Part shown: positions 2,335-14,110 of the stretch, piece by piece
Numbering within the stretch: position 1 is the stretch's first letter
How the letters are laid out: every line of letters begins with the position of its first letter
NCBI GenBank assembly: GCA_016212505.1
Contig: JACRGB010000043.1
Coordinates: 1 to 53,334 of the forward strand
Reading direction: 5' to 3'
Source of the DNA: Microcaldota archaeon
GTDB taxonomy: Archaea > Micrarchaeota > Micrarchaeia > Anstonellales > Bilamarchaeaceae
Length of the DNA stretch: 53,334 bases
The notes under the pieces: model-generated
Seen by the model: only the letters and a program-made list of their open reading frames with translations
Told to the model about the DNA's origin: nothing
Databases searched by the model: none
Position numbers and translations under genes: made by a program

Positions 2335-3708
2335 TTAGTCCAGAAGCTTAAGCACATCGGGCGCTATAATCGGCTTGTTAAGGGCTGAGCCGGGCAATCT
2401 TTTGAATTTGGCTATTGCTTCCTTAATCGCCTTTACTTCCTCAGGGCCTGCGGCCGATGTATGGGTCTGGACCCCGAGCGCTTTTAATTCATCGAGCGTA
2501 ATCAGGCGCATTTTGACCTTAAAATGTTTCATCACCAGGTTCAATATCGGGTCGTTTTCCACTTTCCTTCTTATGTTTAGTGTTTCCCTGCTGTTATTTC
2601 CGATTATATAGTAATCCCGGATATGTAGCTTAACTATAGAATAGGCGATCCCTCCTAATTTATATGGTCCAAAACTGCTAAATGGGCTTGTTACGTTCAT
2701 ACCTGTTGTAAGAAATACTGTCCCTGCAACGTCAAGACCCTCTCTTTTTTCTTTAGTCCTTAGGTATCTTACGAGGGCTTCCCTTGGGTTTGGAATATCC
2801 GGAGAGCATATGAGTCCGGCAATCGGCTTTTGTACGCTCCCCCTTCTGATTTTCTCAAGGTTATTTGCAGGAAGTGCGTCCATCACATATCTCATCATGC
2901 TGGCCAAATCATCAAGAACGGTATGTATTTGGGCGTTTTCATCCATCCGTATCTTTAATCCTGTACGGTAGTTGATTATTCCATAGTTTATGTGGATCGG
3001 GACCCGTGCAAGCTCATTATCCGCATCGAACATTGACCTAAGGTAAAGGTTGGATTTTTGCGGTTCCTTTAGCAGGTCAATGCTTGTAATAAAGCTCTCA
3101 ACAGTATCTCCTTCATGGGCATATGTGCTCTTCAGCAAACGTAGCAGCGTCTTATCATTATCCAATTTTGTTATTATCTCTTTTTTCTCTTGCTTATCGT
3201 AAAATTTTACTTCGGGTTTTAGCTCATAAAATAATGCGATCAGTTCTTTCCACACTTCGCTTGCATCCGACATGCCGCAGTTTACTGTGGAGTGATTATC
3301 AACTATTTCAACTTCATCAGGTTTATAGAGCAATTTCAGTTCTTTGGTCTTAAGCGCAATATCTGCATGGGCTGAGATCTGGACAATCGAACTATGGAGT
3401 ATTTTGCCTTTCTCATGGGGATCAACAGTCATTTTTTCCCCTATTTCGTTCAGGCACTGCCTCAGATTTCCTTTTATCAAGTCCTTTATTTCTATGTATG
3501 ATTGTTTGTTTACTACTGCGCCGGCAATATTTAGCCGGGATAAATCTACTTTTATTCCCCGGGCTGCGTATTCAATTATCAGGCTTCGCATTATTTCGTT
3601 TTCCATGGCCCCGCTGTCCCGCGAGTCACCGCATCTTATTGGAATAACGTGCTGTACTTCCTTTATTTCGTATGGCAGTTCTACTTTGAAATTAGACATT
3701 ACTGGCAT
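2335..3708 (-). CDS. Divergent beta-carbonic-anhydrase-like protein
   Basis: 457 residues, not recognised as a named family. The N-terminal 150 residues carry the order of landmarks of a beta-carbonic anhydrase: RCGDSR (Cys26, Asp28, Arg30, the CxDxR zinc/dyad motif), LNIAGAVVN (residues 59-67, in the place of the R-N-A-G-N segment), and VEIVDNHSTVNCGM (His139, Cys144, in the place of GHxxCG). The His-Cys spacing is four residues rather than two. The remaining 300 residues (basic, mixed alpha/beta) match nothing I know. It is transcribed away from the membrane-complex operon, whose own last gene and next neighbour are also carbonic-anhydrase-like, which supports the reading. The start at 3708 has AGGT eight bases upstream; the Met at 3699 is an alternative. 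Confidence 0.5.
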   Translation of the reverse strand: MPVMSNFKVELPYEIKEVQHVIPIRCGDSRDSGAMENEIMRSLIIEYAARGIKVDLSRLNIAGAVVNKQSYIEIKDLIKGNLRQCLNEIGEKMTVDPHEKGKILHSSIVQISAHADIALKTKELKLLYKPDEVEIVDNHSTVNCGMSDASEVWKELIALFYELKPEVKFYDKQEKKEIITKLDNDKTLLRLLKSTYAHEGDTVESFITSIDLLKEPQKSNLYLRSMFDADNELARVPIHINYGIINYRTGLKIRMDENAQIHTVLDDLASMMRYVMDALPANNLEKIRRGSVQKPIAGLICSPDIPNPREALVRYLRTKEKREGLDVAGTVFLTTGMNVTSPFSSFGPYKLGGIAYSIVKLHIRDYYIIGNNSRETLNIRRKVENDPILNLVMKHFKVKMRLITLDELKALGVQTHTSAAGPEEVKAIKEAIAKFKRLPGSALNKPIIAPDVLKLLD

Positions 3709-3938
3709 TATATGACCTATTTTGTTATTATCGAGGGCCCTTATTAAGTGATTTATTTCCTCATTCTCTCCAGAGCTCGGGATTTTGTTGATCGGTTGGA
3801 ACTGATCGAGTTGAACGGGAATTGGAAAAAATCTGTACGAGATAACTTTTTGGACTGCCGGGCCCTCCCGTGCAACTGAAGCTTTTTATACCTTTCCGCT
3901 GAATAAATCTACGAATCCTATCTACTAAAGGTATTAGA
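3709..3938. promoter_or_regulatory. Divergent promoter region of the carbonic-anhydrase-like gene and the Hyf-like operon
   Basis: Contains a plus-strand TATA box (CTTTTTATACC, about 3881-3891), roughly 50 nt before the operon start, so a leader of about 25 nt is expected. Two near-identical 13-mers, GATCGGTTGGAAC (3790-3802) and GATCGAGTTGAAC (3804-3816), are 14 nt apart and could be regulator half-sites. No gene is seen in the 230 bases. Confidence 0.45.
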
Positions 3939-5924
3939 ATGGTTCCACTTGATTTATTTGTATTTGGTCAGCCTGTGCTGATTGTGTCTGCAATCGTTTT
4001 CGTTGCAGGCGCATTACTCTCTCTCCTTTTTGCAAGAAACTCCAAGTTAAGCTCTATTTTTGGTTTTGGCCTGGCCCTTGTTGCTTGCATACTCGCACTC
4101 GTTGCAGGTATAGCACCTTTTCTTGGGGCAGGTTCCGGCCCTATTGTGCTAGCTGACCTTGGATCGCAGCTTGGTACGCTTTCGGTCAGCGTAGATGCGC
4201 TATCCGGCCTCTTTGTCTCGATAATCGCATTTGTAGGGATTGCAGTTTCAATATACTCATTTGGTTATGTGGAGGAATATCATGAAAAAGGCTATAATGT
4301 CGGCCGCTTTGCTTTCCTCTATAATATGTTCCTGCTTTCCATGCTAATTGTTGTTACTTCACAGAACGTTCTTTTGTTCCTTGTTGTATGGGAGGGGATG
4401 GCAATCAGCTCGTTCTTCCTTGTAACATACGAGCATAAGGCAGAAGATGTCAAGTCTGCTGGTTTTAACTATCTTCTTATAACTCATGTAGGTGCGGTTG
4501 CACTAACATTGATGTTCCTTATTTTTGCAGGGGGCTCTGGCTCTTTGAATTTTAGTTCTTTCCAGACTGCCCATTATTCTCCGATGTTTGCAAGCGCCAT
4601 TTTCATCCTCGCACTGGTCGGATTTGGTTCCAAATGCGGTATTATTCCGCTCCATACCTGGTTGCCCCTTGCCCATCCGCAGGCTCCTAGCAATGTGTCT
4701 GCGCTCATGTCCGGCGTGATGCTCAAAGTCGCGATTTACGGTCTTGTTCGCGTGCTTTTCGGATTCCTTGGAATTATGAATAACGGTACAGAATTATGGT
4801 GGGGACTCCTGATCCTGGTTCTTGGTATGTTTTCAGCTGTGCTGGGCGTGCTCTATTCCTTGCTTGAGCATGACCTCAAGCGTTTGCTTGCGATGCATAG
4901 TATAGAAAACATCGGGATAATATTCATCGGCCTTGGCGCGGCTGTGTTATTTGCTTCTTTTAAGATGCCGGAACTTGCGGCACTCTCCCTTTTCGCGGCG
5001 CTTTATCATACCTTCAATCATGCAATGTTCAAAAGCCTGCTTTTCCTGGGCGCAGGAAGCATAGCGTATTCAACGCATGAGCGGAATATCGAAGAACTTG
5101 GAGGGCTTGCAAAGTTCATGCCCATAACTGCAATATTATTTCTTCTTGGCGCTGCATCTATTGCTGCAATTCCGCCATTAAATGGTTTTGTCAGTGAAGT
5201 TCTTACCTTTGAGGCACTGCTTGGCGGTATCGGCTCATCAACAACCCTATCGCTTGTGCTTTCCTTAGCAGTACTTTTCCTTGCGCTTACCAGTGCGCTT
5301 GCGGTCGGGGCATTTGTAAAAGCTTTTGGAATTCCGTTTCTCGGGCTGCCGCGCAGTTCCCATGCAACTAAAGCAAAAGAAGTTCCGAAATCAATGCTCT
5401 TCGGCATGAGTCTTTTGGGCCTTGCATGTATCGCTGCCGGAGTATTACCAACTATTGCCGCAGAGGCTTCTTTACCTGTATTTAATTCTCTTAATTTCCC
5501 CGGCCAAATCTCATCAGTAATGATCGCTGCACAAGGGCTCCAGACATCAACAATATTATTGATGCTGGTTCTTGGTTCAATTATTCTTGGTGGTGTAGTT
5601 TGGCTTATTGGCAGGAACAAAGTTCATCACGTGGGAGATACCTGGGCGTGCGGTTTTCCTAACCCAACCCCAAGCATGCAGTACTCAGCTGCAGGTTTTG
5701 CCATGCCAGTAACAAGGGCCCTTAAGGCGTGGCTCGATCCGCTGTCAAAGCCAGAAGCTTACGGGGCCAAATTATTTGATTATCTTATTTATTCGCCGCT
5801 ATCAGGCTTTTTCCATACTCTTGCGCCATTTTCAGCCATTTTCCATACTGGAAAACTTAGTGATTATCTGATGTACCTGATGATTACCCTTACCCTGGTA
5901 CTTGTATATGCAATGTCATCGTGA
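3939..5924 (+). CDS. HyfB/NuoL-like ion-translocating membrane subunit
   Basis: 661 residues, almost entirely transmembrane helices. It belongs to the proton-conducting transporter family shared by Complex I NuoL/M/N, Mrp antiporters and hydrogenase-4 HyfB. Channel residues are intact: Glu152 in VVWEGM (TM5 Glu), Lys232 in GSKCGIIPLHTWLP (TM7 Lys) and Lys263 in MLKVAIYGL (TM8). HDLKRLLAMHSIENIG marks the next conserved helix pair. It is the first gene of a six-gene operon; the next start overlaps the stop. Family role: cation/proton translocation driven by conformational change in the peripheral arm. Here that arm lacks redox centres, so the driving reaction is unknown. Confidence 0.9.
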   Translation: MVPLDLFVFGQPVLIVSAIVFVAGALLSLLFARNSKLSSIFGFGLALVACILALVAGIAPFLGAGSGPIVLADLGSQLGTLSVSVDALSGLFVSIIAFVGIAVSIYSFGYVEEYHEKGYNVGRFAFLYNMFLLSMLIVVTSQNVLLFLVVWEGMAISSFFLVTYEHKAEDVKSAGFNYLLITHVGAVALTLMFLIFAGGSGSLNFSSFQTAHYSPMFASAIFILALVGFGSKCGIIPLHTWLPLAHPQAPSNVSALMSGVMLKVAIYGLVRVLFGFLGIMNNGTELWWGLLILVLGMFSAVLGVLYSLLEHDLKRLLAMHSIENIGIIFIGLGAAVLFASFKMPELAALSLFAALYHTFNHAMFKSLLFLGAGSIAYSTHERNIEELGGLAKFMPITAILFLLGAASIAAIPPLNGFVSEVLTFEALLGGIGSSTTLSLVLSLAVLFLALTSALAVGAFVKAFGIPFLGLPRSSHATKAKEVPKSMLFGMSLLGLACIAAGVLPTIAAEASLPVFNSLNFPGQISSVMIAAQGLQTSTILLMLVLGSIILGGVVWLIGRNKVHHVGDTWACGFPNPTPSMQYSAAGFAMPVTRALKAWLDPLSKPEAYGAKLFDYLIYSPLSGFFHTLAPFSAIFHTGKLSDYLMYLMITLTLVLVYAMSS

Positions 5925-5929
5925 TTTTT

Positions 5930-7588
5930 ATGTTTGAAACACTTCCTCTTCCGGCTCAGGCTTTTCTGCAAATACTATTTGTCTTTGCATTTGCACCTTT
6001 ACTGATTGGTATAATGCGCAAAGTAAAGGCCCGTCTTCAGGGAAGATCAGGCGGTCCGATATTCCAGCCATATATCGATATTCTAAAGCTTCTTTCAAAA
6101 GGAACAGCAAAAAGCTCTATTAGTTCATTTATTTATGTTATTGCTCCCGTAGTTGGTTTTGTTTCAGTTGCAATTGCCGCACTTAGCCTTCCGATCCTTT
6201 CGCCAGTGCCGTTTCTTGTAATTAATATTATTATTTTTGCATATCTTTTCTCAATAGGCCGTTTCCTGACTGCCCTTTCAGGGCTTGATGCGGGAAGTTC
6301 TTTTGGAGGGCTAGGTTCAAGCAGGGAGATGTTATATTCTGTGTTGATCGAACCTGCACTTTTTGCAGTAATCCTCTTTATTGTTTCTTCCGGAAGTTTC
6401 AATACCATTATGCCAGTGGCAAGTGGTGCCAGCATCTCTTTCCTCTCAATATTATTATCTCCTGCAATATGGCTTGCAGCGTTGGGCCTTTTTGTAATAG
6501 TCCTTGCAGAAACCGGCAGGCTACCATTTGATAATCCCGCAACTCACCTTGAACTTACTATGGTTCATGAAGCTATGATATTGGAAAATTCCGGTCCTGA
6601 TCTTGCACTTATCGAGTGGGCACATGCGGCAAAAATATTTCTCCTTTTCTCGCTTATTGCGGTTCTCTTTGTACCTATCCTTCCCCAAGGAGACGTTCTT
6701 CGTCTTGGTTTTGTCCTTGGTATTTCCATAGTTCTCTCGGTACTTACTGCAGTAGTCGAAAGCATAAGCGTAAAAGTGCGGCTTTTCAAAATCGGAGAGC
6801 TCCTGATACTTGCCCTTCTTCTTGCAGTCCTTTCTTTCCTAACTACTATTTTTGGAGCTAACTTAGGGGCAGACCTTTTTACTGCTACACTTGTTTTCAT
6901 TATGCTTCTTGGTTCCCTGTATTTCATTTTCAGTGCAACTTTCAACCGCCGTATAGAGCTTTATGCCCTTCAGAGCCTTTGCCTTGCGCTTATTTTCCTC
7001 CAACAGGCCATCATTAGTGGTACATTTGACGGATATTTCCGTTTGGGTGCTACTGTGCTTTTCAAAGTAATAATAATGCCCTTACTATTCTACCAATTGT
7101 TCCGTTTAATGCCCGGTGAGATCAAGCTACTGCCCATACAGTTCTACAATGTGTTCCGCTCAACAAAGGAAGACCTTAGGTTAAAGCTGGATTTTGATCC
7201 ACTGTTTATGGGATCCCAAATATTGCCTGCGCGCGCCCTTATGTACTGCGGCATGCTGATTGTCCTTGCATTTGCGCTTTCGTCAATTTTTGGAAGCACC
7301 AATATCCTGTTGCCGCTTGCACTTTCTCTCATACTTATTGGGATGCTCATTATCGCAGTCAAGGCCCATCTCCTCTTGCAGCTGATGGGTTTCCTTTTGA
7401 TGGAAAATGGGGTCGTGCTGCTTCCAACCGCACTTCCGATACACCTTCCCTTTGTTGGTGATGCGCTTGCACTTTTTGATGTCGTAGTCCTGATAATTGT
7501 TGCAGTGCTGCTTGCACTTAAGATACGTGCTACTGTAGGCACCATGGATACCAAAAACCTTGATGACTTAATAGAAAAAATTCAATGA
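5930..7588 (+). CDS. HyfC-HyfE fusion (NuoH-like plus NuoK-like) membrane subunit
   Basis: About 552 residues. The first 310 are NuoH/HyfC-like: RLQGRSGGPIFQPYIDILKLL near residue 38, SSREMLYSVLIEP, and AETGRLPFDNPATHLELTMVHEAMILENSGP, the loop that faces the quinone cavity in Complex I. Residues 315-555 are HyfE-like (RRIELYALQSLCLALIFLQQ; KAHLLLQLMGFLLMENG with the membrane Glu). In hydrogenase-4 operons these are two genes, so this is a natural fusion, fixing their 1:1 stoichiometry. I start at the ATG at 5930, five bases after a GTGAT ribosome site, rather than the GTG at 5921 that overlaps the upstream stop. Confidence 0.88.
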   Translation: MFETLPLPAQAFLQILFVFAFAPLLIGIMRKVKARLQGRSGGPIFQPYIDILKLLSKGTAKSSISSFIYVIAPVVGFVSVAIAALSLPILSPVPFLVINIIIFAYLFSIGRFLTALSGLDAGSSFGGLGSSREMLYSVLIEPALFAVILFIVSSGSFNTIMPVASGASISFLSILLSPAIWLAALGLFVIVLAETGRLPFDNPATHLELTMVHEAMILENSGPDLALIEWAHAAKIFLLFSLIAVLFVPILPQGDVLRLGFVLGISIVLSVLTAVVESISVKVRLFKIGELLILALLLAVLSFLTTIFGANLGADLFTATLVFIMLLGSLYFIFSATFNRRIELYALQSLCLALIFLQQAIISGTFDGYFRLGATVLFKVIIMPLLFYQLFRLMPGEIKLLPIQFYNVFRSTKEDLRLKLDFDPLFMGSQILPARALMYCGMLIVLAFALSSIFGSTNILLPLALSLILIGMLIIAVKAHLLLQLMGFLLMENGVVLLPTALPIHLPFVGDALALFDVVVLIIVAVLLALKIRATVGTMDTKNLDDLIEKIQ

Positions 7589-7637
7589 AAGTAAAAAGAG
7601 GAAATGAGAAAAATTAAAGATGAAAAATGGTGAAAAT

Positions 7638-9104
7638 ATGCTTGAACTCATAATATTGTCCCTTATACTTGCGGGTGTTCTCTCATTCCTATTTTCAAAG
7701 AACCCGCGGTTTTGCGAGTTCCTTGCAATTGCAGGTGTTTCTGCTGCAGCGGGCCTTTCACTATTTTCCCTTTGGGGTTTTCTTCAGTCACCAACTGCCG
7801 TTACGGACTTTTATGGCCTCCTCTATATGGATTCTGTCTCCGTACTTTTCACTTCACTCACCGTGGTAGTCGCCTTTTTCGTTTTCATCTATTCTATCGG
7901 CTACATCCGCCATGAAGTGGAAGAAAATGTTGTGAATGAGAACCAGATTGGAGGCTACTATGGGTTGCTTTGTTTTTTCTTAGCTGCAATGCTTACCGCT
8001 ACCCTTGCATCAAATATTATAGTAATGTGGGCAGCTATTGAAGCCACTACCCTGGCATCGGTTTTCCTAATCAGTTTTTACAATACCACCAATTCGATTG
8101 AAGCTGCATGGAAGTTTTTCATAATCAACTCAGTGGGTATCCTTCTTGCCCTTGTCGGACTAATGTTCCTTCTTTATGCGGTTCTTCCTCCAGGTTCAGA
8201 ATCAGGAGCGGATTGGAGCAGCCTCCTACTTTTGCACGGAGGGGCGAACCTCTTCTTCCTGAAAATTGCATTTGCATTCATACTTGTTGGTTTTGGTACA
8301 AAAGTTGGCCTGGTCCCGCTTCATGTCTGGCTTCCGGATGCCCACAGCCAGGCACCTACCCCGGTCAGCGCGCTTCTTTCAGGAGTTCTTCTCAATATTG
8401 CTTTCTACGGGATCCTGAGGGCATATTCTATGCTGAGCCCATATCCAGATCTTGTTTCATTTGCATCCAGCTTGCTTATTGTTTTCGGGCTTCTTTCACT
8501 TGCCATTGGTGCCCTTCGTTTGTATTTCCAGAACAACCTCAAGCGGATGCTTGCATATTCCAGCGTTGAAAATATGGGCATTGTGGTGCTAGCGCTTGGG
8601 ATTGGAGGTCCTATCGGAATTTTTGCCGCGCTCTTCCACATGGTATCCCATTCACTGGCAAAACCCCTTGCCTTTCTTGCAAGCGGCATGATTGCTTTGG
8701 CATTTAAGACCAAGGAAATCAAGTCCATAACCGGAGCTGCCCAGGTGGTTCCTGTGGTTGCAATATTGTTTGTTTTCATCGCAGTAGGGATTTCCGGCAG
8801 CCCACCATTTGGCACATTCTTTTCCGAAATGGGCATTCTTGCAGCAACACTTTCTTCAGGGCAGTTTATCGTAGCAATTCTTTTCATACTATTTACTACG
8901 GTTACTTTTGCCAGTTTGCTTTACCGTACTTGCGGCATGAGCTTTGGCGAGAACTACGAAGATGTCCCGGTTTTTAAGCCCGACCTTAGTATGATGGCAC
9001 CTTTTGTAGTTCTTTTGGTACTTACAATTTATTTCGGCCTGATGCCCCCTGGCGAATTCACCAGACTTCTTGGGATGGTTGTTCAGGCAATAAGAGGTGG
9101 ATGA
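7638..9104 (+). CDS. HyfF/NuoM-N-like ion-translocating membrane subunit
   Basis: 488 residues, about 14 predicted membrane helices, second antiporter-like subunit of the complex. The TM5 glutamate (AAIEATTLASVF, about residue 135) and TM7 lysine (FGTKVGLVPLHVWLPDAHSQAP, about residue 222) are kept, as is LKRMLAYSSVENMG. The start at 7638 follows GGTG by five bases; an in-frame ATG at 7620 has no such site. It overlaps the next gene by a few bases, so translation is probably coupled. By family it forms a second ion channel beside the HyfB-like subunit. Confidence 0.9.
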   Translation: MLELIILSLILAGVLSFLFSKNPRFCEFLAIAGVSAAAGLSLFSLWGFLQSPTAVTDFYGLLYMDSVSVLFTSLTVVVAFFVFIYSIGYIRHEVEENVVNENQIGGYYGLLCFFLAAMLTATLASNIIVMWAAIEATTLASVFLISFYNTTNSIEAAWKFFIINSVGILLALVGLMFLLYAVLPPGSESGADWSSLLLLHGGANLFFLKIAFAFILVGFGTKVGLVPLHVWLPDAHSQAPTPVSALLSGVLLNIAFYGILRAYSMLSPYPDLVSFASSLLIVFGLLSLAIGALRLYFQNNLKRMLAYSSVENMGIVVLALGIGGPIGIFAALFHMVSHSLAKPLAFLASGMIALAFKTKEIKSITGAAQVVPVVAILFVFIAVGISGSPPFGTFFSEMGILAATLSSGQFIVAILFILFTTVTFASLLYRTCGMSFGENYEDVPVFKPDLSMMAPFVVLLVLTIYFGLMPPGEFTRLLGMVVQAIRGG

Positions 9105-9106
9105 AA

Positions 9107-10717
9107 ATGGCTGATGAAATTAAAAAATTCGCGTTAACACTTCAAAAATACCTTAAAGCCGGCGCTTTAGAACGTGTGGAAGAGCGGGGTAGCTGCATCT
9201 GGATGAAGGTCCGCCAGGGCGAACTAATCAATGCGTGCGAAGGGAGCCTGGAAAATGGCGCCATCTTTGATTCTGCTTTCATCTCTTCCTCTGCTGAAGG
9301 CAAGAATGCCAGCCGCTCTGCAAGTGCCAGCAGATCTGCAAATCCATTTGTTGCTTATTATCTCTTCCGCGTCCCGAGCCTCGGAATGATGCTCGTAATT
9401 ATGGCGCAGGGCAAAGAATTTAGTGCACTTTCAGCAAATTTAAATGCAGCAATATGGGATGAGCGGAAAATACAGGACCTTACCGGCCTCTTGCTCCAGG
9501 GTATTCCTGACTCAAGGCCGCTTATCTTTCATCCAGAAAGTGGGATGCCCGATAAGCATCCTGTAGGGGGCAAGCCGTTTATTAAACCAAAAAGTTCCGA
9601 TTACATAATAAAAGGTACTGGTATGGAAGGGGAATTTGAACTAGGTGTTGGTCCTGTGCACGCTGGCATAATTGAGCCAGGCCATTTTAGGGTCCATATC
9701 TTTGGTGAGCAGATTAACAAGCTCGAATTACGGATGTTCTACCTTCATCGCGGGGTTGAAAAAGCTGCGGAAGGCAAATCTTTGCAGGAAGCTCTGCCTA
9801 TGATCGAATCTATTTCAGGTGATGAAGCTGTTGCTAATGCGGTTGCCTATTGCCATGCAGTCGAGCACGCACTTGGCTTTAAAGCTCCCGAGCGGTCCGA
9901 ATTCATCCGTGCCATACTCATGGAACTTGAACGCATCTACAGCCACCTTTCTGATTTGGGTGGTATGCCGACCGATGTTGGTTTTTCTGTTGCTGCTTCA
10001 AGGTTTGCAGTCCTCCGGGAGGATATGATGAGGCTCAATCGTCAGGTTTCTGGAAGCCGCTTCCTCCATGGCATGTGCGTGGTGGGCGGGGTCAATAATG
10101 ACCTTGACAAAAACAAGCTTTTGCTAATTAACCATTCGCTTGAGAATTTCACAAAAGAGCTTGAGCGTGTGGAACAACTGACCCTCAAATCATCTACCTA
10201 TCTTGACCGTGTCTTTTCTACTGGCATAGTTACTTCCAGCGTTGCCAAGGAACTTGCTCTTGTTGGTCCTGTTGCCAGGGCCGCTGGCATAAGCTGCGAC
10301 CTGCGTAAGACACTTCCTTATTCAGCATACCCCAAAGTACCATTTACCGAGTCTATTGAAAAAAATGGTGATGTGCTTGCAAGGTTCCTGGTAAAGCTTG
10401 CAGAAGTCAAAGAATCCGCAAAGCTAATAAAATGGCTCATCTCCCACCTGCCTAGTGGCGCACTTCAGGCTGATTTGAAAGTACCAACTGATGAAGAGTC
10501 CGGGCGCATCGGTGTTGGATGGTCCGAGGCTCCGCGTGGAGCATGTTCGTTCCTTGTTGAACTAACTGAAGATGGAAAAATAAGGCGCCTTGCCTGCAGG
10601 ACCGCATCATTTAGGAACTGGCGCGGCATCGAGAACTTAACGCGGGGCAATATCGTGCCTGATTTCCCACTCATAAACAAAAGCTTTAATATGTCCTATG
10701 CAGGGACAGATCTGTGA
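9107..10717 (+). CDS. HyfG-like (NuoC-NuoD) large subunit lacking NiFe ligands (Ehr type)
   Basis: About 536 residues. An N-terminal NuoC-like part (to about 150) is joined to a NuoD/hydrogenase-large-subunit part: GVGPVHAG and GHFRVHIFGE (about 183-201), YLHRGVEKAAEGK, RIYSHLSDLGGMPTDVG, SGSRFLHGMCVVGGV. Where hydrogenases have CGICxxxH it reads SGDEAVANAVAY, and at the C-terminus, where they have DPCxxC, it reads VPDFPLINKSFNMSYAG. Neither CxxC pair exists, so no NiFe centre can be bound. This is the hallmark of energy-converting-hydrogenase-related (Ehr) complexes, whose substrate is not known. I use the ATG at 9107, seven bases after GGTG; the ATG at 9101 overlaps the upstream stop. Confidence 0.88.
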   Translation: MADEIKKFALTLQKYLKAGALERVEERGSCIWMKVRQGELINACEGSLENGAIFDSAFISSSAEGKNASRSASASRSANPFVAYYLFRVPSLGMMLVIMAQGKEFSALSANLNAAIWDERKIQDLTGLLLQGIPDSRPLIFHPESGMPDKHPVGGKPFIKPKSSDYIIKGTGMEGEFELGVGPVHAGIIEPGHFRVHIFGEQINKLELRMFYLHRGVEKAAEGKSLQEALPMIESISGDEAVANAVAYCHAVEHALGFKAPERSEFIRAILMELERIYSHLSDLGGMPTDVGFSVAASRFAVLREDMMRLNRQVSGSRFLHGMCVVGGVNNDLDKNKLLLINHSLENFTKELERVEQLTLKSSTYLDRVFSTGIVTSSVAKELALVGPVARAAGISCDLRKTLPYSAYPKVPFTESIEKNGDVLARFLVKLAEVKESAKLIKWLISHLPSGALQADLKVPTDEESGRIGVGWSEAPRGACSFLVELTEDGKIRRLACRTASFRNWRGIENLTRGNIVPDFPLINKSFNMSYAGTDL

Positions 10718-10726
10718 GGTATTGCT

Positions 10727-11269
10727 ATGTTGCTTGAAACTTTAAAACGCGCATTTGATTATTATCCTGATCGGGTGTCTGAGAAATCTCCAGACCCATC
10801 AGTACGTGAAGTTGCGCTTCTGCTCAAGCAGAGGCCACTATCGTTGTTTTCCCGTTCGATACATGTGCGTATGGTGGATGCTGGCTCGCCAAATGATGTT
10901 GAACTGGAGCAGCAGCTTATGATGTCGCCGCGCGTGGATGCCGAGCGGTTTGGCGTGCATTTTGTAGCTTCACCAAGACATGCAGATGTGCTTATTGTTA
11001 CTGGTCCAGTTACACAGAATATGCGCATTGCACTGATAAAAACTTATGAGGCAATGGCCGAGCCACGTGCTGTTGTTGCGGCCGGAGATGGTGCTTGCAC
11101 GGGATGGCCTTTTAAGGGCAGTTATGCTTTGGCCGGAGACGGGAGCGTTGAGAGCATCATTCCTGTCGATGTAAAAATCCCAGGAAACCCTCCAAATCCA
11201 TACGAACTTCTTGCGGGCATACTCAAGGCAGGTATGCTTATTGATAAGAAAAGGAAACAGCGCAAATAA
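10727..11269 (+). CDS. HyfI/NuoB-like small subunit lacking all four N2-cluster cysteines
   Basis: 180 residues. The framework is unmistakable: ERFGVHFVASPRHADVLIVTGPVTQNM (residues 73-99), then PVDVKIPGNPPNPYELLAGIL. In HyfI/NuoB relatives the [4Fe-4S] N2 ligands lie in GSCNGCELE, GDC and PGCPP. Here the same places read GSPNDVELE (Pro55, Val58), GDGACTG (Gly122) and PGNPP (Asn154). All four ligands are gone; the only nearby cysteine (Cys124) is two positions off. With the large subunit also lacking NiFe ligands, no electron path remains in this pair. No HyfH or HyfA ferredoxin-like gene follows. The start at 10727 follows GAGGT by six bases. Confidence 0.87.
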   Translation: MLLETLKRAFDYYPDRVSEKSPDPSVREVALLLKQRPLSLFSRSIHVRMVDAGSPNDVELEQQLMMSPRVDAERFGVHFVASPRHADVLIVTGPVTQNMRIALIKTYEAMAEPRAVVAAGDGACTGWPFKGSYALAGDGSVESIIPVDVKIPGNPPNPYELLAGILKAGMLIDKKRKQRK

Positions 11270-11301
11270 AAATTGGCTTGAATATTAGATGTCTGATTAA
11301 T

Positions 11302-12561
11302 ATGGCTCCTCCCTCCCAATCGCGCGGACTAAGGCGCCAGCCCTATTTGCCTCCTGAAGCTGAAACCTTTTCTTACCAAAGGGATAAGCCCCAACTTGCG
11401 CTAGTTTCTGGCGATGGTTCTGGTTCTAATGATTTGCGGGCTAAGCATCGCATCATTGGTTTGACTCCGCAGGAATCGGTAGAGCTGATGCTCCAGGGAA
11501 ATTATGATCATGCAGCGCGTCTTTCCGAACTTTCCCTTCATGGGGTTCCTTTGCAAGTTAGGAGAAATATACTAGCTGATCCAGAGAGCCGCCTTGTTGA
11601 TTATGTTGTGGTTGCCTGCTCTGACGCACGAATTCCGAGACTGGATTCTGAAAAAGATAATCTTGTAGGAATCCATATCCGCACTGCGGGAAATTATCTT
11701 TCAGTAACTTCACGGGAAGAATTCATCAAGATCAAGCAAGCAGTTTCAAATCTTCGTCCGAATGGTGTGCTGATTTTTCTGGGCCATCATGATTGTGGCG
11801 CGGTTAAGGAACTGGTTAAGTGGCTCAGGGCCGACGAATCGGGCGGTAAACTGGCAAAACCGCCAACCGGCAGCTTGGCAATGGATCATCTTATGAAAGA
11901 AATGTCCGGTTTAAGCCCATCCAATAATGAATTAAACCAGCGCAAGCGCGCAGTAAAGCGTTTGGGCCTGGGTGGGGATCAGGTTGTTGCTGCGCTAAAC
12001 TATGACTGGGAAAAAGGAGGTTTTGAAATAATTAAGGCCAAATCTTCAGAACGGCTAACCTTGATTGTTGACCATTGGAACGAACTTGCCACTATTGCCA
12101 AAGGAGAACTTGAAAAACAAAAATTAACCCTCTCCGCTTTACTTGCAAAACAGCGCCCGCATGCCATTGTGGTCGGGACTCCTGATTTGCCTTATAGCCT
12201 AGGGACAATTATGCAGTCTGAGCAGAATGAAATTTTTTCGGTAACTGCGACCTCACGCGGCCTGGATAAGACTGACCTTGCATCGATAATTTATTCTTTG
12301 AGCCACGGGGTTAGCCATATTGCCCTTACTACGCCTGGATTACGGCGCGATGAGAAAACTATACAAAAATTATTCAAAAAATGGAAGGCCGAGCTGCGCC
12401 AGTCGCTCAAGGAAATTCCGGAGCTTCTTGATAAATTCGACAGCGGTGCAATTTCGCTCAGCTTATTTAGGTATGATCTGGATAGTGGAAAACTCATGCC
12501 TATGAAATCTGCTCCCTCTTCTGCAACTGCCTCTGACCCAATACAATTAGGTTCGGCCTAA
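11302..12561 (+). CDS. Beta-carbonic anhydrase with a degenerate second carbonic-anhydrase-like domain
   Basis: 419 residues from the ATG at 11302; a TTG eight codons earlier is less likely. The first domain has a complete beta-carbonic-anhydrase site: CSDAR (Cys106, Asp108, Arg110), IRTAGN (126-131), and GHHDCGAV (His162, Cys165). These bind zinc and hydrate CO2 in the family. Around residues 287-345 the same layout returns without ligands: VVGTPDLP for the CSDAR strand and ALTTPGLRRDE for the GHxxCG strand, a pseudo-domain likely for dimer-like packing. The gene starts 32 bases after the HyfI-like stop with no visible promoter between, so it is the last gene of the membrane-complex operon. 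Bases 12564-12571 (T run) may end the transcript. Confidence 0.75.
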   Translation: MAPPSQSRGLRRQPYLPPEAETFSYQRDKPQLALVSGDGSGSNDLRAKHRIIGLTPQESVELMLQGNYDHAARLSELSLHGVPLQVRRNILADPESRLVDYVVVACSDARIPRLDSEKDNLVGIHIRTAGNYLSVTSREEFIKIKQAVSNLRPNGVLIFLGHHDCGAVKELVKWLRADESGGKLAKPPTGSLAMDHLMKEMSGLSPSNNELNQRKRAVKRLGLGGDQVVAALNYDWEKGGFEIIKAKSSERLTLIVDHWNELATIAKGELEKQKLTLSALLAKQRPHAIVVGTPDLPYSLGTIMQSEQNEIFSVTATSRGLDKTDLASIIYSLSHGVSHIALTTPGLRRDEKTIQKLFKKWKAELRQSLKEIPELLDKFDSGAISLSLFRYDLDSGKLMPMKSAPSSATASDPIQLGSA

Positions 12562-12690
12562 AACATTTTTTTGGAATCTGATGACTATTGACTTCTATTG
12601 ACTTTTCACTGAGTTTGGCGTTAAGCTTATAAGCATTTGCTGGTAATTAAATCCAAATTGTGTTTGCTTAGTCTCAACTGTATTAGGTAG

Positions 12691-12766
12691 GCTTTATAAA
12701 CACATTTCTACATATATTATAAACATCTTAAATATAATTAAATGGTTCTAAATCATTGGTGAAAAT
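12691..12766 (+). promoter_or_regulatory. Promoter and leader of the second carbonic-anhydrase-like gene
   Basis: GGCTTTATAAAC (about 12689-12700) is a good archaeal TATA box; a second AT-rich candidate (ATATTATAAAC) lies at about 12714-12724. GGTGAAAATATG places a GGTG ribosome site five bases before the start at 12767. The 205-base gap upstream also holds two TTGACTT words (12588 and 12599 region) but no gene. Confidence 0.5.
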
Positions 12767-14110
12767 ATGGGAAGATTAGCGTATGCTGAACAAGCTGCTG
12801 CTGCTCGCCCACTCATCCGGGCCCAAAAACCGCTTACTATCCCACAATCTATCGGTACTCTGGTGGAAGGTTTTAGGACCGGATTCCAGGCACGTGATCA
12901 TCGCTCTTCTTTAAGCGGTATGAGCTTTTTCCGGATTGCCGGCCAGGCAACCAACCTATCTGATGAAAATTCCCGAAGTGAAATTTTAAGAGTTTTAAAT
13001 CTTATAAAACCCGGAGGGGCATTTATTGTCCTTGGCCATGGCGGCCTTATTCCCTGTGGGGCTGTTGCTGCCAAGAAAAAATCAATGTCTTTTGCTAGAA
13101 GAGGCAAAGAATTCTCTGCTCCAGACTCCGTACGTTTGCTTGTCGATCATGTTTCGCCTAAAGTTCGGGGATTGGCATCTCCTTTTGCCGAATTAGAAAA
13201 TTCCCAGGCACAGGCATTTGCAATATTGCGCGATCCGGAACTAGCTAAAATTATAAAAAAGAAAAACCTTACTGTGGTTGCAGCTGTTTGCTCATTGAGT
13301 AAACAGAATGGGGTCGGCAATGGGGTGACTCTGGTCTCTCCCGACCTTCCAGCGCCTATTCATTCAGCCAAAGTTTACTTTTTGCCAATAAACCGTGGCA
13401 GGGAATGGAAGGTGAATCTTGCAACTTTAAAAGCAGCTGTTCGTGATTGTGAAGCTGGTCGGACAGATACTGATAATGTCCGAGAAAAAAGTCGAGTTGA
13501 ACGCGAACTATTTATAAGGCATCAAAAACTATTTGCTTTGAGAGAACAGCTTGTTAACGGGCTTCATAAAATCGTTCATGATAAGATTGACCTAAGCAAG
13601 CAGTATGCCCATGCGTTATTTGTCTTTGACCAGCTATTGATGCGCAGCGTTTTGGATCCGTTGGAGCAGTATCTGGATGTTGGCGGAATATCCTGCATGG
13701 ATGCCCGTTTGGCTCCAAATACCCCTGATGGTCCAAAACAACTCTTTAGGATCCCTCCCAATCACTCTGCTTCTGTTAATGTTGAAATGAATGGTGAAGT
13801 CAAATTTTCCTATGATGATATTGGTTCTATGGAATATGCATATGGCCATATTGCAGGTGTTAATAGCCTAAGTCCAAATGATCCAGGCAATGGGCACACC
13901 ATCATTTTAGATACTTCGGCAACATTTGCCCATGCCCAAGTTATCAGGGAAGCCCTTATTGGGGAGCAGCTTGTTGCCCAGGCAACTGATGGCGGAAAAA
14001 CAATTACCCTTGTAAGTTTCACTGGAACTGAACTGCTCATTAGAAATCCCGGATTTAAAATAGACCTTAGAATTCCTTATCGTCCTGAATATGATCTTTT
14101 CCGCGTCTGA
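12767..14110 (+). CDS. Tandem carbonic-anhydrase-like protein with complementary half active sites
   Basis: 447 residues, two beta-carbonic-anhydrase-like halves. In the first, QARDHR (residues 41-46) replaces CxDxR: the Cys is Ala42 but Asp44 and Arg46 remain. FRIAGQATN (55-63) and VLGHGGLIPCGAV (His91, Cys97, five residues apart rather than two) follow. In the second half CMDAR (Cys310, Asp312, Arg314) is intact and FRIPPNHS (327-334) stands for the RNAGN segment, but the GHxxCG place reads ILDTSATFAHA (about 380-390). Thus one half has the His-Cys pair and the other the Cys-Asp-Arg motif. Whether they meet in one zinc site is inference. It follows the operon in the same direction from its own promoter and may form a complex with the upstream anhydrase. 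Confidence 0.6.
   Translation: MGRLAYAEQAAAARPLIRAQKPLTIPQSIGTLVEGFRTGFQARDHRSSLSGMSFFRIAGQATNLSDENSRSEILRVLNLIKPGGAFIVLGHGGLIPCGAVAAKKKSMSFARRGKEFSAPDSVRLLVDHVSPKVRGLASPFAELENSQAQAFAILRDPELAKIIKKKNLTVVAAVCSLSKQNGVGNGVTLVSPDLPAPIHSAKVYFLPINRGREWKVNLATLKAAVRDCEAGRTDTDNVREKSRVERELFIRHQKLFALREQLVNGLHKIVHDKIDLSKQYAHALFVFDQLLMRSVLDPLEQYLDVGGISCMDARLAPNTPDGPKQLFRIPPNHSASVNVEMNGEVKFSYDDIGSMEYAYGHIAGVNSLSPNDPGNGHTIILDTSATFAHAQVIREALIGEQLVAQATDGGKTITLVSFTGTELLIRNPGFKIDLRIPYRPEYDLFRV

Follow-up and report, generated by a model that had tools for sequence, protein, structure and literature searches.

An Ehr-type membrane complex without redox centres appears to stand in for a soluble beta-carbonic anhydrase in Micrarchaeota

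We describe a complex-I-like, Ehr-derived membrane complex of Micrarchaeota that would no longer transfer electrons and may now provide the cell's bicarbonate in place of a soluble beta-carbonic anhydrase (beta-CA). Comparative sequence analysis supports the loss of the redox centres, the retention of the ion path, the linkage to carbonic anhydrase (CA)-like genes and the replacement of beta-CA within the same gene neighbourhood; the predicted enzymatic activity, the coupling, its direction, the ion and the physical association of the proteins are what we infer from these patterns. On this basis we lean, by a little over an even chance, towards an ion-gradient-driven bicarbonate supply that resembles the DAB systems, is built on an Ehr complex and replaces the soluble enzyme.

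The window analysed here is a 53,334-nucleotide stretch whose contig belongs to a 1.48 Mb assembly, 90% complete; its HyfI has its nearest relatives, by sequence comparison, in Candidatus Micrarchaeota genomes, which places the organism in that group. Five plus-strand genes make up the operon. HyfB (3939–5924; PF00361) is a NuoL-like, antiporter-like subunit, whose nearest solved protein is HycC of formate hydrogenlyase. It is followed by a HyfC-HyfE fusion (5921–7588) that combines a NuoH-like part (PF00146; HycD) with a NuoK-like/HyfE part (PF00420, below its cut-off), by the antiporter-like subunit HyfF (7620–9104), by the NuoC/NuoD-like, HycE-like HyfG (9101–10717), assigned by sequence and structure comparison, and by the NuoB-like, HycG-like HyfI (10727–11269). 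The nearest solved structures of HyfB, HyfC, HyfG and HyfI are E. coli formate hydrogenlyase subunits, and that of HyfF is P. furiosus Mbh. A first-pass annotation had proposed this hyfB-CE-F-G-I operon, and its content, order and coordinates all hold; the same order of five genes was found in 15 other Micrarchaeal loci and is thus more than chance. HyfA/HyfH ferredoxin-like subunits are absent from the operon, which has five genes in the window and in relatives. The CPA2 antiporter gene at about 14425, which had been suggested to share the ion circuit, is real; none lies near the operon in the relatives compared, and we rejected it as a component of the system.

The electron-carrying sites of the complex appear to be gone. 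HyfG lacks the four NiFe-binding cysteines by which group 4 [NiFe] hydrogenases are recognised: in the window and its relatives the positions of the two pairs read SGDE and NLSYAGxD, the latter being NMSYAGTD in the window copy. A group-4-hydrogenase-like subunit set whose HyfG has no NiFe CxxC pairs is what identifies an Ehr complex. In HyfI, the N2 [4Fe-4S] ligands are absent at all four positions; GSPNDVE, GDGAC and PGNPP stand for the cysteine ligand motifs in 13/13 Micrarchaeal sequences compared, so that the intact N2 ligands usual in bacterial Ehr complexes occur in none of the 13. HyfI is not cysteine-free, because the Cys of GDGAC, which lies two residues from where the third N2 ligand would be, is kept in 12/13. 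This nearly invariant off-register Cys, together with the view that N2-intact bacterial Ehr complexes are redox-linked (PMC6349859), would suit an account in which redox chemistry persists through a partner encoded elsewhere, such as a quinone or a flavin, the CA locus serving as no more than a landing site. No electron path is visible, however, since the operon has neither a ferredoxin gene nor N2 ligands, and such an account does not predict the exclusion of beta-CA described below; we consider it improbable.

The ion path, by comparison, seems intact. The TM5 Glu (HyfB E152, HyfF E141) and TM7 Lys (HyfB K232, HyfF K228) are conserved in every sequence aligned, so that HyfB and HyfF, like the channel subunit of DAB systems, are NuoL-like PF00361 proteins with conserved ion-path residues. 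What the first-pass annotation had said of both antiporter-like subunits, of HyfG and of HyfI is therefore borne out in the relatives as well. These alignments support an Ehr-type, redox-dead complex that would have lost its electron-carrying sites and retained its ion-path residues. The antiporter-like character of HyfB and HyfF would equally suit a plain Mrp-like ion antiporter or a bicarbonate/ion transporter, which would replace CA by bicarbonate import or pH management and leave the CA-like proteins to a separate job. A pure antiporter would not obviously need HyfG and HyfI, both strongly conserved although cofactor-less, and we regard this transporter reading, to which we return below, as rather unlikely.

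Three CA-like genes flank the operon. CA3 (2335–3708, minus strand) diverges from it, CA1 (11278–12561) follows HyfI on the plus strand, and CA2 (12767–14110, plus strand) comes next. On profile comparison with hhalign, CA1 is a two-domain relative of beta-CA, and CA2 and CA3 appear to be such relatives too, the similarity of CA3 being weak. CA1, which matches PF00484 at 33 bits, resolves into two CA domains (99.5% and 95.6%), of which the second is degenerate and the first holds the full C-x-D-x-R, His and Cys zinc site of a beta-CA: C114/D116/R118, H170 and C173 counted from the TTG start, or 106/108/110/162/165 from the ATG at 11302, which is also a possible start. The halves of CA2 match micrarchaeal beta-CA at 94.2% and 93.9% (P about 1e-7), and those of CA3 match beta-CA with P values of 2e-4 and 3e-3. 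The candidate zinc residues of CA3 (C26-x-D28-x-R30, H114, C144) are invariant in 18/18 homologues, and those of CA2 (H91 and C97 in domain 1; C310, D312 and R314 in domain 2) in 8/8 close homologues. Both the full site of CA1, with the same residues under TTG numbering, and the second and third CA-like genes had been noted at first pass, and all are confirmed. At E<=0.01 no Pfam family matches CA2 or CA3, a direct profile comparison between the two found no similarity, and PF10070, the DabA family, matches none of the three, CA1 matching only PF00484. The AF2 model of CA3 (pLDDT 76) has two alpha/beta halves. Fold searches with it in the PDB (Foldseek) and in viral libraries returned nothing at E<0.001; beta-CAs of moderate probability were listed, and among the PDB matches listed the beta-CA 9s4g had the highest probability, 0.66. 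A model of CA2 was not used, its mean pLDDT being 47. As a side observation, the window's own genome encodes a 389-aa protein (L166, 5529–6698, G000:C2) that weakly resembles CA2 and contains a CSDAR motif; its hydrophobic N terminus suggests export.

The linkage between operon and CA-like genes recurs in related archaea. A CA-like gene adjoins the operon in 13/16 Micrarchaeal loci, a tally that takes in one contig-end fragment (L047) and one weak match, a 257-aa CA-like protein (L231). The neighbours belong to several different families: CA2, CA3 and others, among them another CA-like protein of 325 aa at L046. At L040 the operon is truncated by the contig end and CA3 lies on another contig. 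The operons at L042 and L045 have no CA2, CA3 or beta-CA nearby; a single beta-CA with a signal-peptide-like start was found in the L042 genome.

A further tie to bicarbonate comes from the distribution of beta-CA across genomes. The sample comprised 99 genomes, the window's own and its relatives (MAGs, 54–100% complete), of which 12 carry the operon (Hyf+) and 87 do not (Hyf-); for two of the former, G079 and G080, the evidence is operon genes lying at the ends of contigs. The census was confined to CAs of the beta class, and a soluble beta-CA was defined as a PF00484 match of >=60 bits, a cut-off set after viewing the data. By this definition beta-CA is present in 0/12 Hyf+ versus 58/87 Hyf- genomes. 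Within the order (84 genomes) the figures are 0/12 versus 53/72 (Fisher p=1.2e-6), related genomes not being independent samples, and stratification by genus gives P=6.6e-6. If any PF00484 match is accepted, 3/12 Hyf+ genomes score, all with frames of 437–460 aa, the window's being CA1. Searches of the order found no Hyf+ genome beyond the 12, and searches of the class found four in other families. Carbamoyl-phosphate synthase is a bicarbonate user, and a clear one is encoded in 11/12 Hyf+ genomes.

Every Hyf+ genome (12/12) encodes CA2 or CA3, against 11/87 of the Hyf- ones (p=1.5e-9; CA2 matches below 1e-10, being weak, did not enter the count). This distribution speaks against the transporter reading, in which the CA-like proteins have another job. 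Among the carriers of CA2 or CA3, beta-CA is kept in 9/11 Hyf- genomes versus 0/12 Hyf+; it is therefore Hyf, and not CA2 or CA3, that tracks the loss. For the same reason CA3 alone was rejected as the replacement, as it coexists with beta-CA in Hyf-less genomes. The zinc residues of CA2 and CA3 are also kept in Hyf-less genomes, where they occur together with a normal beta-CA, so that these proteins need not be Hyf subunits, and it is chiefly for this reason that the transporter reading stays serious.

The operon is found where the beta-CA gene would be expected. As a rule this gene has the release-factor gene aRF1 as its neighbour, and argininosuccinate synthase, glmS or a Lon-like gene is found in the vicinity. 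(The aRF1 gene is itself split by an intein with homing-endonuclease domains, detected by Pfam, at L030, 9683–12198; an intein is likely at L025 and L229, where the ORFs are 913 and 923 aa long.) In genus g30, one genome (G075) reads aRF1-betaCA-X582-ArgG-Lon and another (G066) aRF1-CA3-Hyf-X582-ArgG-Lon. A similar exchange is seen in g17, g24 and g1; in four genera, then, the operon occupies the neighbourhood where congeners keep beta-CA. In the window glmS is nearby and aRF1 was not seen. From this comparison we infer that the Hyf operon replaced the soluble beta-CA in place, and the position hints that an ion gradient, and not electrons, is used to make bicarbonate. It could instead be that recombination at a hot locus put a Hyf/CA3 island in the place of a beta-CA that could be spared, the two sharing no function. 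The neighbourhood is indeed variable between genomes, and beta-CA is also missing from 19/72 Hyf- genomes of the order, so that its loss alone is not decisive. Against mere displacement, the exclusion is genome-wide and holds within five genera with different gene arrangements, and the aRF1 tree implies at least five gain or loss events of Hyf. Displacement of this kind is, in our estimate, very improbable.

In bacteria such as Nitrospira and Omnitrophota, the relatives from which the Micrarchaeal complex would descend are N2-intact Ehr complexes, so that the N2 ligands whose presence in close relatives would weigh against the proposal are found only outside the archaeal clade. N2 ligands are also gone from four CPR HyfI sequences. 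In the HyfG tree, Aquicultor adjoins the Micrarchaeota, and Nitrospirota adjoin the CPR sequences. Since N2 is intact in both of these adjoining groups, it was probably lost twice, in Micrarchaeota and in CPR separately. Members of genera g1 and g24 fall in different branches of the tree. The four CPR genomes have no CA2, CA3 or PF00484 match, and N2 loss is by itself no sign of CO2 chemistry; a general association of N2 loss with CA was rejected, since the CPR sequences that lost N2 form a branch of their own. The first-pass annotation had named operons regularly lacking CA genes in relatives as an outcome that would count against it. This was not seen in Micrarchaeota and was seen in these four bacteria, where N2 loss was independent. 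Three of the four CPR operons neighbour F-type ATP synthase genes: one lies directly downstream of an atpC-like gene (L084), one near atpB (L059), and one has ATP synthase-like genes upstream (L063). CA-free complexes in such company lend the transporter reading some weight, and they possibly represent a different redox-free use of Ehr. Two further observations concern bacterial loci. At L102 (Nitrospira sp.), HyfI reads GSYNACE, a change at a single N2 ligand of an Ehr that looks intact in other respects. Among the fetched flanks of bacterial Ehr operons, a beta-CA-like gene was found only at L067, a gammaproteobacterial N2-intact operon with a canonical beta-CA (209 aa; 9670–10299) convergent with HyfI; L055 gave a weak sub-threshold match.

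Returning to the bicarbonate supply that we favour, a plausible mechanism can be proposed. An ion, H+ or Na+, would flow down its gradient through HyfB and HyfF, and this flow would be relayed via the HyfC/G/I core to docked two-domain CA3, CA2 and CA1. CO2 hydration to bicarbonate could thereby be made effectively one-way inside the cell, by analogy with DabAB. Of the CO2/bicarbonate-coupled Ehr complex envisaged at first pass, the Ehr type and the redox loss stand, as does the tie to CO2/bicarbonate, through the recurrent CA linkage, the exclusion of beta-CA and the occupation of its place; the part assigned to the CPA2 antiporter does not. More tentatively, at somewhat less than an even chance, this would be a third, independently evolved machine joining an ion gradient to CO2 hydration, with HyfG and HyfI serving as relay and dock, which displaced CA several times within Micrarchaeota. 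If so, non-redox chemistry can both drive a complex-I core and be driven by it, and the Micrarchaeal complex would offer a natural electron-free system for studying the coupling between the core of complex I and ion movement. One branch of Ehr complexes would also gain a function, and a way in which reduced archaea get bicarbonate would be revealed. No paper on this redox-dead Ehr/CA system turned up in the literature library searched.

Cyanobacterial NDH-1MS with CupA/CupB, a complex-I relative tied to CO2 hydration, is powered by electrons that pass through intact Fe-S clusters. The complex described here differs in that its N2 ligands are missing, and a Cup homologue was not identified. E. 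coli formate hydrogenlyase/hydrogenase-4 (PDB 7z0s), structurally the closest for four of the five proteins, has NiFe ligands, N2 ligands and ferredoxin subunits that are absent here. Bacterial Ehr complexes, such as that of Nitrospira (PMC6349859, PMC10284858), have the same HyfB/C/E/F/G/I-type subunits, homologous by sequence and tree, and the same NiFe cysteine loss (SGDx and NLSYxGxD); unlike the Micrarchaeal complex they keep the N2 ligands, save for the four CPR cases and the single change in one Nitrospira copy. Their role is listed as unknown (PMC10284858), and the Micrarchaeal complex is a variant of the Ehr kind with a possibly new function. The DAB/MpsAB systems (PMC13144422, PMC6689103) likewise feature a NuoL-like channel and, beside it, a beta-CA-like protein of two domains that has C-x-D-x-R, His and Cys. 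In DAB2 the catalytic half, DabA2, has a pair of beta-CA-like domains, with a zinc site of the Cys2His type and a dyad of Asp and Arg (PMC13144422), and the likeness of the CA-like proteins to DabA2 is architectural, CA2 and CA3 matching no Pfam family. DabA has a membrane finger, whereas the CA1, CA2 and CA3 types are proteins of about 380–460 aa in which no membrane segment is obvious, apart from a single borderline stretch in CA2, and DAB has one DabB where the present complex has two antiporter-like subunits and HyfC/G/I. MpsAB complements CA and vice versa, and Firmicutes genomes tend to have just one of the two (PMC6689103); a comparable interchangeability with CA is suggested here by the genomic exclusion of beta-CA.
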